Both the position numbers and the translations under genes were made by a program. Shown one piece after another: positions 18,406 to 36,166 of a stretch of 54,693 nucleotides of DNA. A model generated the notes under the pieces. It was not told the origin of the DNA, searched no databases, and worked only from the letters and a program-made list of their open reading frames with translations. Numbering within the stretch: position 1 is the first letter of the stretch; the number at the start of each line of letters is the position of its first letter. The stretch covers positions 1 to 54,693 of the forward strand of contig NZ_AYXG01000215.1 of NCBI RefSeq assembly GCF_000564855.1. Reading direction: 5' to 3'. This stretch comes from Actinokineospora spheciospongiae. Lineage in GTDB: Bacteria > Actinomycetota > Actinomycetes > Mycobacteriales > Pseudonocardiaceae.

Positions 18406-19731
18406 ATGGCGAACGGTAAGTCGGAGCCCACCCGGATTCTGATCCTCGGTGGCGGTTACGTCGGCCTCTACGCGGCCCTCGGGCTGCAGCGCAAGCTGCG
18501 CTCCGGCGAGGCCTCCGTGACGGTCGTCGACCCGCAGCCGCACATGACCTACCTGCCGTTCCTCCCCGAGGCCGCGGCGGGCGCGATCGAGCCCCGGCAC
18601 GTGGTCGTGCCGCTGCGCCGCGCGCTCAAGCGCTGCCACGTCATCACCGCCCGCACCACCGCGATCGAGCACGCCCGCAAGGTCGTCACGGTCGAGGCGC
18701 CGGACGGGCACACCGAGGAGCTGGGCTACGACGTGCTGGTCGTGGCGCTGGGCTCGGTGGCCCGGCTGCTGCCGATCCCCGGCCTGGTCGAGCAGGGCAT
18801 CGCCTTCAAGACCATCGGCGAGGCCATCTACCTGCGCAACCACGTGATGACCAAGCTCGACGAGGCCGACTCCACGCTCGACCCCGAGCTGCGCAAGCGG
18901 TTGCTCACCTTCACCTTCGTCGGCGGCGGCTTCGCGGGCATCGAGGCGCTCGGCGAGCTGGAGGACATGGCCCGCTTCGCCACCCAGTACTACAAGAACG
19001 TCGAGCCGGAGGACCTGCGGTTCGTCCTGGTCGAGGCCGCCGGGCGGGTGCTGCCCGAGGTGCGCGAGAGCCTGGGCGTCTACACCGTGATGCAGCTCGA
19101 GAAGCGCGGCATCGAGGTCTACCTGTCGACGCTGGCCAAGTCGTTCGAGGGCGGGCACGTGCAGCTCTCCGACGGCACCGAGTTCGACAGCGACACCATC
19201 GTCTGGACCGCGGGCGTCAAGTCCAGCCCGGTCCTGGGCAACTCGGACCTGCCGCTGACCAAGCAGGGCCGCCTGCGCGCCACCGCGGCCATGCAGGTCG
19301 AGGGCCTGCCGGACGTGTGGACCGCTGGCGACTGCGCCGCGGTGCCCGACCTGGCCCGCACCGGCGAGGACCCGACCGCCATCTGCGCCCCCAACGCGCA
19401 GAACGCGGTGCGCCAGGCGCGGCTGCTGGCCAAGAACATCGTGGCCTCGCTGCGCGGCGGCAAGCCCAAGGACTACTACCACAAGAACATCGGCTCGGTG
19501 GCCAGCCTCGGCCTGCACAAGGGCGTCGGCGACGTCATGAACTTCAAGGCCAAGGGCTTCGTCGCCTGGGCCATGCACCGCGCCTACCACGTCAAGGCGA
19601 TGCCGACCTTCAACCGCAAGGTCCGGATCACCCTCGACTGGTTAACCGGTGGGTTGTTCCGGCGCGAGGTCATCTCGATGGGGCAGATCAACGACCCGAA
19701 GGCGGAGTTCGCCCGAGTCTCCAAGGGCTGA
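18406..19731 (+). CDS. ndh: Type II NADH:quinone oxidoreductase-like flavoprotein (NDH-2)
   Basis: A 441-residue single-subunit dehydrogenase that passes electrons from NADH to the quinone pool without pumping protons. The FAD Rossmann motif is ILGGGYVGLYAALG (residues 12-25), the NADH Rossmann motif is TFVGGGFAGIEALGEL, and the C-terminal FAD motif is VWTAGDCAAVPD. The C-terminal part has the amphipathic region expected for membrane attachment. Codon 413 (bases 19642-19644) is TTA, one of only two TTA codons I noticed in confident genes here. A UAA-anticodon tRNA gene starts 90 bases after the stop. The gene is monocistronic. Exact substrate (NADH or NADPH) is not decided by sequence. Confidence 0.88.
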   Translation: MANGKSEPTRILILGGGYVGLYAALGLQRKLRSGEASVTVVDPQPHMTYLPFLPEAAAGAIEPRHVVVPLRRALKRCHVITARTTAIEHARKVVTVEAPDGHTEELGYDVLVVALGSVARLLPIPGLVEQGIAFKTIGEAIYLRNHVMTKLDEADSTLDPELRKRLLTFTFVGGGFAGIEALGELEDMARFATQYYKNVEPEDLRFVLVEAAGRVLPEVRESLGVYTVMQLEKRGIEVYLSTLAKSFEGGHVQLSDGTEFDSDTIVWTAGVKSSPVLGNSDLPLTKQGRLRATAAMQVEGLPDVWTAGDCAAVPDLARTGEDPTAICAPNAQNAVRQARLLAKNIVASLRGGKPKDYYHKNIGSVASLGLHKGVGDVMNFKAKGFVAWAMHRAYHVKAMPTFNRKVRITLDWLTGGLFRREVISMGQINDPKAEFARVSKG

Positions 19732-19820
19732 TTCGGCAAACGGCCCAAGGACTTGGGCCACCCGGGCGGAACTCTCCGAAACTGTTCCCGCGATTTGTTT
19801 CCGCGCCTTAGGCTGCGTTC

Positions 19821-19897
19821 GCCCCCGTAGCCCAACAGGCAGAGGCAGCCCCCTTAAAAGGGGTCGAGTGCCGGTTCGAATCCGGTCGGGGGCACCA
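19821..19897 (+). tRNA. tRNA with UAA anticodon (leucine, TTA codon), short variable loop
   Basis: Fold by eye: acceptor 19821-19827 with 19887-19893 (7 pairs), D arm with a 3-bp stem GCC/GGC and an 11-base loop containing GG and AGA as in leucine tRNAs, anticodon stem 19848-19852 with 19860-19864 and loop CTTAAAA (anticodon TAA at 19855-19857), T stem 19870-19874 with 19882-19886 around TTCGAAT, and an encoded ACCA end. The variable region is only five bases (19865-19869), whereas leucine tRNAs normally have a long variable arm. The anticodon would read TTA. Charging identity is therefore uncertain. Confidence 0.8.
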
Positions 19898-20193: not shown

Positions 20194-20943
20194 GTGGCTG
20201 AGTACCGGATCGACGACCTCGCCAGGGCGGCGGGCACCTCGGTGCGCAACATCCGCGTCTACCAGGACCGCGACCTGCTGGCGCCCCCGGCCCGCCGCGG
20301 CCGCACCGCCATCTACGGCGACGGGCACCTGGCCCGGCTGCGGCTGATCCGCAACATGCTCGACCGCGGCTACGCGTTCGCCCAGATCAAGGAGATGATC
20401 GACGCCTGGACCGCCGGGCACAGCCTGGCCGACGTGCTCGGGCTGGAGGAGGCGACCGGCGCGGCCTGGTCGCACGAGCGGCCCGCCGTGGTCCCGATGG
20501 CGGACCTGGTGCGCATGTTCGGCACCCAGCTCACCCCGGCCAACCTCCGCAGGGCGCTGGAGCTGGGTGTGCTGGAGCGCCGGGGCGCGCAGTTCGTCGC
20601 CCCCAGCCCCGGGCTGCTCGAAGCCGGGCACGAGCTGGTCAGGCTGGACGTCCCGCTGGCCGAGGCGCTGGCGCTGGCGGCCGAGCTGCAGACCGAGACC
20701 GACCGGATCACCGGGCTGCTGATCGGCCTGGTGCGCCGCTACGTGCTGGACCCGAAGGGCCCGGACTGGCTGCCCAGCGGCGAGGAGCTGCCGCACTACG
20801 CGGACGTGATCTCCCGGCTGCACCCGCTGGTCATGTCGGCCCTGTCGGCCGCGGTCGACCGGTCCGCGCGGCGGGTCATCCCGGAGATCATCGGCGACCG
20901 GCTGGTCGCCATGGCCGAGCGCGCGGCGGCTGAGCAGGGCTGA
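20194..20943 (+). CDS. MerR-family transcriptional regulator
   Basis: A 249-residue DNA-binding regulator. The N-terminal winged helix is typical: YRIDDLARAAGTSVRNIRVY (about residues 3-22), RDLLAPPARRGRTAIYGDGH, LARLRLIRNMLDRGYAFAQIKEM. The C-terminal 150 residues are helical, with no metal-binding cysteines, so it probably senses an organic ligand rather than a metal. The gene lies 95 bases before the ephD-like operon, in the same direction, and that gap holds a dyad inside a promoter spacer as MerR proteins use. It is probably translated from a leaderless message beginning at GTG 20194. Confidence 0.9.
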   Translation: MAEYRIDDLARAAGTSVRNIRVYQDRDLLAPPARRGRTAIYGDGHLARLRLIRNMLDRGYAFAQIKEMIDAWTAGHSLADVLGLEEATGAAWSHERPAVVPMADLVRMFGTQLTPANLRRALELGVLERRGAQFVAPSPGLLEAGHELVRLDVPLAEALALAAELQTETDRITGLLIGLVRRYVLDPKGPDWLPSGEELPHYADVISRLHPLVMSALSAAVDRSARRVIPEIIGDRLVAMAERAAAEQG

Positions 20944-34927: not shown

Positions 34928-36166
34928 ATGAGCGCTCCCCAGCCGCCCAACCCGCCGTGGCAGGGCGGGCAGCCCCAGCAGGAGCCGGGGCAGTCCGGAC
35001 CCGAGTACACCGCACCCCCGGGTGACACGGCAGGCGCCGACGGCGTGGAGCGCACCCAGGCGATCCGCCCCGGTCAGCCCGTTCCCGGCCAGGACGAGTC
35101 CGACCGCACCCAGGTCGTGCAGCCGGGGCAGACCGGTGCGCAGCCCGGCGGTGGCGACGCGACCCAGATGGTGCCCCCGGGCTCGGTCCCGCAGTCGCCG
35201 CCGTACGCCCCGCCGCCCAGCGCCGCGGACCTGTCCTCGCCCGCGGGCGGCTTCGGCCAGCCGCCGAACCCGTACGGGCAGCAGCAGCCGGGCCAGTTCG
35301 GCCAGCAGCCGCCGCCCGGGCAGTACGGGCAGCCCCAGCAGCAGAACCCGTACGGCCAGCCCGGCCCGTACGGCCAGCCGCAGGGCGGGTTCGCCCAGCA
35401 GGGCGGCCTCGGCTACGCGCCGCAGATGGGCGGGCAGGGCGCCAACACCGGCGTGATCGCCACGGTCATCCAGGGCGCGGTCGCGCTGCTCGGCCTGATC
35501 AGCCTGATCCTGTCGATCGTGTCGCTGTCGTCGGTGATCAAGTCGGCTTCCTACGACCCGGCCGACGGCTGCGACACGCTCAGCGACCCCGACCTGCGCG
35601 CCTCCTGCGTCTCCGCGGCGAACCGGTACGCCGGTGACGTCGGCGGTGCGAGCGCGCTGAGCGTCATCATCGCCGTCGTCCTGCTGCTGGCCTCGGCCAC
35701 GGCGCTCGCGGGCGCGGTGCTGCTGTTCCTGAAGAAGACCGAGTTCGCGCACCTGCTGGTGCTCGGCGGTGGCGCGGCCCTGCTGGTCCTGTCGATCGTG
35801 CTGGGCGCGTCGTACTACTTCACCGGTGGCGTCATCACGATCCTGGTGTTCGGCCTGCTGATCACGGCCGCGGGCGCGCTGTGGTTCTTCCCGCAGACCA
35901 AGCCGTTCCTGGTGTCGAACCAGCCGCTCGGCGGCCTCGGCGGCGGCCCCAAGCCGCCCGCCGGCCCCGGCGGCTACGGCCAGCCCCAGCAGCACAACCC
36001 GTACGGCCCGCCCCCGGGACAGCAGCAGCACAACCCGTACGGGCAGCAGCAGCCGGGCCAGTTCGGCCAGCAGCCGCCGCCGGGGCAGTACGGGCAGCCG
36101 CAGCAGCAGAACCCCTACGGGCAGCCGCCCGGTGGCCAGCCGCAGCAGCCGCCGCAGCAGTGGTGA
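34928..36166 (+). CDS. pra: Proline/glutamine-rich membrane protein (Pra-like antigen)
   Basis: A 412-residue membrane protein with disordered Pro/Gln/Gly-rich tails on both sides of a four-helix core (membrane segments near residues 175-200, 245-270, 280-305 and 308-330). The loop after the first helix has two cysteines (ADGCDT, RASCVS). It lies between cbs and metB exactly like the proline-rich antigen gene (Rv1078) of M. tuberculosis, the basis of the symbol. ATG 34928 has GTGGAG six bases upstream. Two 29-residue copies of the same repeat flank the core. Role unknown; perhaps an envelope scaffold. Confidence 0.82.
   Translation: MSAPQPPNPPWQGGQPQQEPGQSGPEYTAPPGDTAGADGVERTQAIRPGQPVPGQDESDRTQVVQPGQTGAQPGGGDATQMVPPGSVPQSPPYAPPPSAADLSSPAGGFGQPPNPYGQQQPGQFGQQPPPGQYGQPQQQNPYGQPGPYGQPQGGFAQQGGLGYAPQMGGQGANTGVIATVIQGAVALLGLISLILSIVSLSSVIKSASYDPADGCDTLSDPDLRASCVSAANRYAGDVGGASALSVIIAVVLLLASATALAGAVLLFLKKTEFAHLLVLGGGAALLVLSIVLGASYYFTGGVITILVFGLLITAAGALWFFPQTKPFLVSNQPLGGLGGGPKPPAGPGGYGQPQQHNPYGPPPGQQQHNPYGQQQPGQFGQQPPPGQYGQPQQQNPYGQPPGGQPQQPPQQW
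35267..35355 (+). repeat. 89-bp direct repeat, copy 1 (N-terminal tail of Pra-like protein)
   Basis: Matches 36032-36120 with three differences, all synonymous third-position changes, so both copies encode the same 29 residues (residues 114-142 here). Confidence 0.92.
36032..36120 (+). repeat. 89-bp direct repeat, copy 2 (C-terminal tail of Pra-like protein)
   Basis: Second copy of the 35267-35355 repeat, encoding residues 369-397 in the same frame. Confidence 0.92.

Follow-up and report, generated by a model that had tools for sequence, protein, structure and literature searches.

According to the available text of a review of unusual tRNAs, which also defines class I, class II and the allo-tRNA or tRNA-Sec-like forms, leucine tRNAs belong to class II (PMC7609411). 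The accessible part of a 2023 review describes tRNA-Leu as long-armed everywhere but in animal mitochondria. Streptomyces bldA is a class II tRNA, and genes of its type are 83–87 nt long with a long arm, G9, G12-C23 and G13; leuZ of E. coli K-12, 87 nt in length, also has a long arm. A short variable loop together with a leucine anticodon is found in a mycobacterial array-borne Leu(TAG), an extra copy beside the normal class II gene in the available text of PMC6582537. For M. tuberculosis, the accessible part of PMC11541572 gives long loops for Leu-2, -3 and -5, and for Leu-1 and Leu-4 a short loop only by implication. As far as their available text goes, neither of these two papers describes a class or a replacement. 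Between array and chromosomal tRNAs of M. avium, the differences reported in the accessible part of PMC12803027 lie mostly in the D, anticodon and variable arms. Animal mitochondrial tRNA-Leu has no long arm and is leucylated in mitochondria (PMC9976931, available text).

The window analysed here is a stretch of 54,693 nt from Actinokineospora spheciospongiae. It holds a class I tRNA-Leu(UAA) gene with an encoded CCA end at 19821–19897 (+), identified by ARAGORN, Rfam, direct reading and covariation. The gene resembles bldA in its UAA anticodon, A73, A14, A15 and U48, and the two loci would be linked through one genome (G050) only; it has none of the other bldA-type features named above. It shares the anticodon with leuZ, from which it differs in length and arm, and a class I Leu(UAA) gene in a metagenome-assembled genome (MAG) of Rokuibacteriota lies in a glyW-cysT-leuZ-like gene order. 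The mycobacterial array gene is alike in anticodon type and loop and unlike in being an additional copy, whereas mitochondrial tRNA-Leu belongs to an organelle system and the bacterial gene keeps the full canonical cloverleaf. Short-armed bacterial Leu(UAA) genes contradict the long-arm rule as worded in the accessible part of the 2023 review. A literature search that covered few subscription papers or preprints had no title or abstract opening on short-armed bacterial tRNA-Leu among the matches listed, and the term ‘Class I tRNALeu’ was not found in the literature searched. The tRNA databases surely contain these genes and their curators may know them. The window gene is very probably an ordinary class I tRNA-Leu(UAA), and probably the sole one of its genome, which would be leucylated, would read UUA and would have come about by a coordinated switch of the resident gene.

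Structure of the tRNA gene

ARAGORN called a tRNA-Leu(taa) at exactly 19821–19897 on the forward strand. The Rfam tRNA model RF00005 matched 19821–19894 over its full length with 58.5 bits, where 29 are required. By direct reading, the gene has a 7-bp acceptor stem, T8, A9 and the T loop TTCGAAT. The D arm (19830–19846, +) has a class I-type core, with a 3-bp stem GCC/GGC (C12-G23), C13, A14 and A15, and an 11-base loop CAACAGGCAGA that includes G18, G19, C20 and A20a. The anticodon TAA (19855–19857, +) lies in the loop CTTAAAA and was obtained both by direct reading and by ARAGORN. The variable loop CGAGT (19865–19869, +) counts five bases, of which the final U48 can pair with A15, and the gene ends with the discriminator A73 and the encoded CCA (19894–19897, +). 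Judged by gene lengths, CCA is encoded in eight of 15 congeners and absent in the other seven. The original prediction of a UAA anticodon, a D arm of the leucine type, a variable loop of five bases and an encoded CCA end is confirmed by ARAGORN, Rfam and direct reading.

With its five variable bases and 7/5 acceptor-T arrangement the tRNA falls within class I (four or five variable bases, 7/5) and outside class II, which has a variable region of at least 10 bases. Nor is it of the allo-tRNA or tRNA-Sec-like type (8/4 or 9/3 with a longer arm), and its anticodon is UAA and not an arginine anticodon. The complete cloverleaf with anticodon UAA is that of a tRNA-Leu(UAA).

Folded as a single sequence, the gene is mildly better than its shuffles (z = −1.87, with 11 of 200 shuffles equally good). 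When 20 diverse homologues of class I were aligned, 99.8% of pair cells were standard in a cloverleaf with a five-base variable loop, and two-sided changes occurred at 15 of the 20 pairs (shuffle mean 10.2). None of 500 shuffles matched the observed pair percentage or covariation score; the three D-stem pairs are invariant and hence uninformative. The conserved, covarying cloverleaf and the two program calls indicate that the feature is real and not due to chance. The assembly is a draft, from which a pseudogene or a sequencing error that had lost the long arm could have been read. The same gene is present in all 15 congeners and covaries over the 20 homologues, and on account of this conservation such an artefact was rejected, its probability being practically negligible.

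Leucine tRNAs of the genus

Of 61 genomes (the own genome and 60 relatives), 52 contain a match with an E value of at most 1e-6; part of these matches belong to other leucine tRNAs. The search in related genomes, proposed with the original prediction, showed a best match 95–100% identical to the window tRNA in all 15 other species of the genus. The 29 leucine loci taken from the best matches among the relatives (L039–L067) were all called Leu(taa), with lengths of 74–79 nt.

Among the loci of 49 Rfam tRNA matches in the own genome, short leucine tRNAs were found for UAA (77 nt), CAA (77 nt) and UAG (76 nt), together with two long GAG genes of 85 and 87 nt. Leu(CAG) was not found among these 49 loci, although congeners have one, and this is probably an assembly gap; its absence from a draft of 262 contigs shows that genes can be missing from the assembly. 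A normal class II Leu(UAA), the presence of which had been left as a question, was found in this draft neither by pattern nor among the Rfam tRNA loci. In the three single-contig congeners (G005, G006 and G014), three of the five leucine isoacceptors among the matches listed are short-armed (UAA, UAG and CAA) and two are long (GAG and CAG), and no class II Leu(UAA) is among those matches. In certain other genomes, the pattern used for these leucine sets overlooks genes. In this lineage the short Leu(UAA) is the norm, and the premise of leucine tRNAs being normally class II fails.

Elsewhere in the own genome (C80:37324–37474; locus L470, 1501–1651), a 73-nt Asn(GTT)-like tRNA and a 76-nt short-armed tRNA with the serine anticodon CGA lie two bases apart. 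Genes related to this tandem pair occur in six of 41 genomes, the own genome included. ARAGORN called Asn+Arg, Ser(CGA)+His and Thr(CGT) in three relatives (L471, L472 and L473), so the anticodons vary. The frames beside the pair in L470 and L471 are 63% identical over 478 aa and had no Pfam or PADLOC match. Tandem pair and adjoining frames possibly constitute a tRNA-linked system.

Genomic surroundings of the gene

Upstream of the tRNA gene lies its syntenic neighbour ndh (18406–19731, +), a type II NADH dehydrogenase-like gene (Pfam Pyr_redox_2). A perfect inverted repeat GGCCCAAG-GA-CTTGGGCC without a T run (19742–19759, +) stands between the two genes and is a possible 3' hairpin of ndh. 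Six bases before the tRNA gene is a possible −10 element, TAGGCT (19809–19814, +), which is conserved in 18 of the 19 upstream regions compared and reads TAAGCT in the 19th. Its conservation is consistent with a promoter of the tRNA gene's own; a sigma-70 consensus promoter pair was looked for upstream of the gene and not found. Downstream follows a MerR-family regulator gene (20194–20943, +), separate from the tRNA and a neighbour in 14 of the compared loci. An 86-nt tRNA-Pro(tgg) called by ARAGORN at 35900–35985 (−) of the window was not detected by Rfam and is probably false.

The short-armed Leu(UAA) gene adjoins ndh in all 15 congeners and in other families, on which ground the suggestion that the window gene is a transferred copy was rejected; no long-armed Leu(UAA) was found in the draft genome. 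In at least 19 of the 79 listed Leu(taa) loci of named genomes, ndh precedes the tRNA gene on the same strand by at most 700 bases, an undercount since the tRNA gene is often near the end of the locus. In two genomes of the window's taxonomic order, ndh stands upstream of a class II Leu(UAA) gene, at 185 bases in G050 and 360 bases in G048.

Downstream of the G050 gene are BaxI_1 and thiolase genes that are common to the Streptomyces-type Leu(UAA) locus. The family with this locus (f18) was inferred to be Streptomyces or close kin, 13 of the 20 records that match its tRNA being Streptomyces. Three of its four class II loci have downstream genes in common with the class I loci of G120 and G364, and in Nonomuraea gerenzanensis a class I Leu(UAA) gene lies about 2.3 kb from a sequence that matches this thiolase stretch, in the same relative orientation. 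The loci common to G120, G364, Nonomuraea and the Streptomyces type place class I genes at the bldA-type position. No ndh was detected near any of the four Streptomyces-type loci (within about 5 kb, 1e-15), and the window gene would be linked to the bldA-type position via G050 only.

The link to the Streptomyces Leu(UAA) locus, and UUA being the codon of bldA regulation, bring up a bldA-like regulator, a limiting tRNA that would set when developmental or antibiotic genes with TTA codons are translated. We regard this as improbable. The adjoining ndh itself contains one TTA codon (19642–19644; TTA use was examined in 11 open frames), and the available text of a review notes that a bias of TTA codons towards gene starts is not seen beyond the streptomycetes, doubts that bldA has such a role in other bacteria and suggests that the wider role may be confined to Streptomycineae (PMC4255298). 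The term ‘bldA-like’ in the original prediction would hold for the position, through G050 which links the ndh locus to the Streptomyces-type locus, and not for a regulatory role.

Long- and short-armed genes also share loci within other families. In f32, common upstream genes at similar positions and orientation accompany the class II genes in G284 and G294 as well as those of class I in G071, G253 and G156, and the same applies in f61 to class II G187, G209 and G450 and class I G176 and G230. The class I gene of G336, also of f61, had no neighbour in common with these class II loci.

Distribution of the two forms

Out of 396 sampled genomes of Actinomycetota, at least 59 match the class I and at least 150 the class II Leu(UAA) pattern. 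As 187 genomes match neither strict pattern, the two numbers are minima. Not one genome matches both, where about 22 would be expected if the two were independent (hypergeometric P = 3e-14, uncorrected for relatedness).

A pattern scan of named genomes covered 119 stretches with at least 80 loci. Of the 80 listed, 79 were called tRNA-Leu(taa) of 74–77 nt and 73 are actinobacteria by record title. The genera among the matches listed include Mycobacterium, Nocardia, Gordonia, Rhodococcus, Corynebacterium and Microbacterium, as well as Amycolatopsis, Saccharopolyspora, Kibdelosporangium, Streptosporangium and Actinomadura. A match in Acinetobacter beijerinckii (L239), at which no tRNA was called, is due to chance and gauges the specificity of the pattern, while a match on a Ruegeria plasmid was given as tRNA-Arg(cct), not leucine, by ARAGORN.

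Outside the phylum, the matches listed comprise MAGs of Planctomycetota (L172), Rokuibacteriota (L175), Deltaproteobacteria (L195) and Chloroflexaceae (L194), the cyanobacterium Moorena (L233) and one untyped bacterium (L206). Contamination is a possible source of those in MAGs. The Rokuibacteriota genes are ordered Gly(GCC)-Cys(GCA)-Leu(UAA), as are glyW-cysT-leuZ of E. coli K-12; in L195 Cys and Leu follow each other at ten bases, and in L172 Cys precedes Leu by about 400 bases. In Moorena and in the Chloroflexaceae MAG, class I Leu(UAA) is part of arrays with 12 and 26 tRNAs per 8-kb locus, respectively. Plasmid p1 of Bifidobacterium longum (L091) carries 14 tRNAs within 3 kb, among them a 74-nt Leu(taa) and one tRNA with anticodon CUA (called Pyl).

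Differences between the long- and short-armed genes

Positions 9, 12, 13 and 23 were left free in both search patterns. The class I pattern fixed G18 to A22, G24 and C25 (this does not apply to the 30 rows found by similarity), the class II pattern A14, A15, G19 to A22 and C25. C12-G23, C13 and a loop of five bases are found throughout the 139 class I rows parsed from cellular genomes (30 + 30 + 79, L239 being omitted as no tRNA is present there; 114 distinct sequences). At position 9, 135 of them have A and four have G; A73 and A15 are found in all 139 and U48 in 138. G9 and G12-C23 are constant in the 25 distinct class II genes, which have G (22) or A (3) but never C at position 13, and loops of 13–19 bases. 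Arm and D-arm core are thus coupled. The short form would have arisen when the resident gene changed in a coordinated way, losing the variable arm together with a rewriting of the core, from G9, G12-C23 and G13 to A9, C12-G23 and C13. With the new D core, class II packing presumably gave way to the tertiary packing of class I.

This change appears to have occurred repeatedly in the Actinomycetota. A quick tree of one protein, leucyl-tRNA synthetase (LeuRS), from 58 genomes (35 class I and 23 class II) requires at least 12 class changes, eight of which are forced by starred branches, against 18.3 on average with shuffled labels; gain and loss are not distinguishable on it. The genomes had been chosen to include families with both states, and the number is therefore no switching rate.

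Family f32 shows which parts differ. Between its two class II and three class I genes, the acceptor strands are identical and the T arm is 98% identical, with 60% for the D core, and the class I D core is the same as in four genes from the window family. In f61 the acceptor stems of the two classes differ as well; with G336 lacking a common neighbour, replacement of the whole gene fits this family equally well.

Phage copies and the origin of the short form

Class I Leu(taa) was called in all 80 listed viral contig loci (at least 80 in total; 76 distinct sequences). These loci were picked by pattern, which shows presence and not frequency, and the IMG/VR contigs may include host DNA. All 19 serine tRNAs in the listed loci keep their long arm. 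The further leucine tRNAs are short in eight of ten cases for CAA, five of nine for UAG and neither of two for GAG, and two long UAA genes are present too. Annotated phages with such genes are Kykar with Leu(taa), Genie2 with Leu(caa) and Phosso (Sinorhizobium) with a 79-nt Leu(taa). Four viral rows with two distinct sequences (L313/L314 and L318/L324) have a short loop and a D-stem strand, CGC, that resembles class II, and look like separate arm losses. In cellular genomes, the matches listed also hold extra short-armed leucine tRNA-like genes for CAG, GAG or CAA (G031:C1:1143261–1143381, G048:C1:8928987–8929986 and G036:C1:3457197). They are beyond the usual set, some are adjacent, and they are likely mobile clusters.

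A phage- or array-borne class I tRNA-Leu could have overwritten the resident gene several times, either wholly or by conversion from the D arm to the variable region. We consider this possible, though rather unlikely. The class I genes on every listed viral contig, the copies within arrays of Moorena and of the Chloroflexaceae MAG, and the adjacent extra genes among the matches listed for G031 and G048 speak for such a module, as does f32, where acceptor and T arms are local and the D core is identical to those of class I genes far removed. The window gene, however, is syntenic and old, neither donor nor breakpoint could be named, and viral rows are often unlike cellular ones (G15 in 19 of the 80 listed); phages may also have acquired the gene from their hosts. 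The leucine function would be unchanged, the difference from stepwise arm loss being one of origin only.

A wider form of this proposal, a second bacterial tRNA-Leu design in which the phage- or array-borne class I core repeatedly overwrote resident D-to-variable segments, is held to be unlikely. UAA would be hit most often, and also CAA and UAG, and the locus would stay, in some families with acceptor stem and T arm. The short form may then be favoured by escaping tRNA-attacking enzymes which recognise long-armed leucine tRNA. The switch of the resident gene remains the preferred origin for the window tRNA.

Charging and decoding

The available text of PMC9976931 gives A73, A15-U48, G18, G19 and A20a as the leucine identity bases in E. 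coli, and states that E. coli LeuRS can do without the long arm and charges minimal tRNAs that lack it. All of these bases are present in the window tRNA. As they are kept, ordinary leucylation and UUA decoding would be the best reading. LeuRS should be able to accept the short form because it would read A73, A15-U48, G18, G19 and A20a and not the arm, as in E. coli. The tRNA would be charged with leucine, and its UAA anticodon would decode UUA and probably, by wobble, UUG.

LeuRS occurs in two length types of about 820 and 950 aa, and each was found with both tRNA classes (L132–L161 and L441–L468). In the longer type from sampled Actinomycetota, the profile match breaks near position 142, which suggests an insert. 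A LeuRS column explaining the class was sought in f32 (nine class I and four class II) and rejected, since the best accuracy of 0.89 was below 0.91, the mean of 100 shuffles. With all 58 rows included, the highest accuracy of a column was 0.74, uncorrected for relatedness.

The class I shape and an acceptor stem identical to that of the own genome's tRNA-Arg(CCG) would suit a tRNA charged by ArgRS or another synthetase, with UUA being read otherwise or ambiguously. Such mis-acylation, also raised in the original prediction, or recoding is highly improbable. The leucine identity bases are retained, acceptor stems vary widely among class I leucine tRNAs, and no other Leu(UAA) was found in the draft genome to decode UUA. 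The anticodon bases of arginine are not known to include A35 and A36. An origin from tRNA-Arg is not needed to account for the acceptor stem, since the leucine classes of f32 have acceptor and T arms in common.

Significance

Ordinary leucylation of a short-armed tRNA would concern a whole genus, in which the short form is the sole Leu(UAA) found, and a phylum in which it is widespread. The pairs of class I and class II genes at one locus in related species amount to repeated natural experiments, by which the need of LeuRS, the ribosome and tRNA-attacking toxins for the long arm becomes directly testable. Rules based on the long arm can fail, be it in tRNA classifiers, in predictions of toxin targets or in the design of orthogonal tRNAs for actinobacteria.
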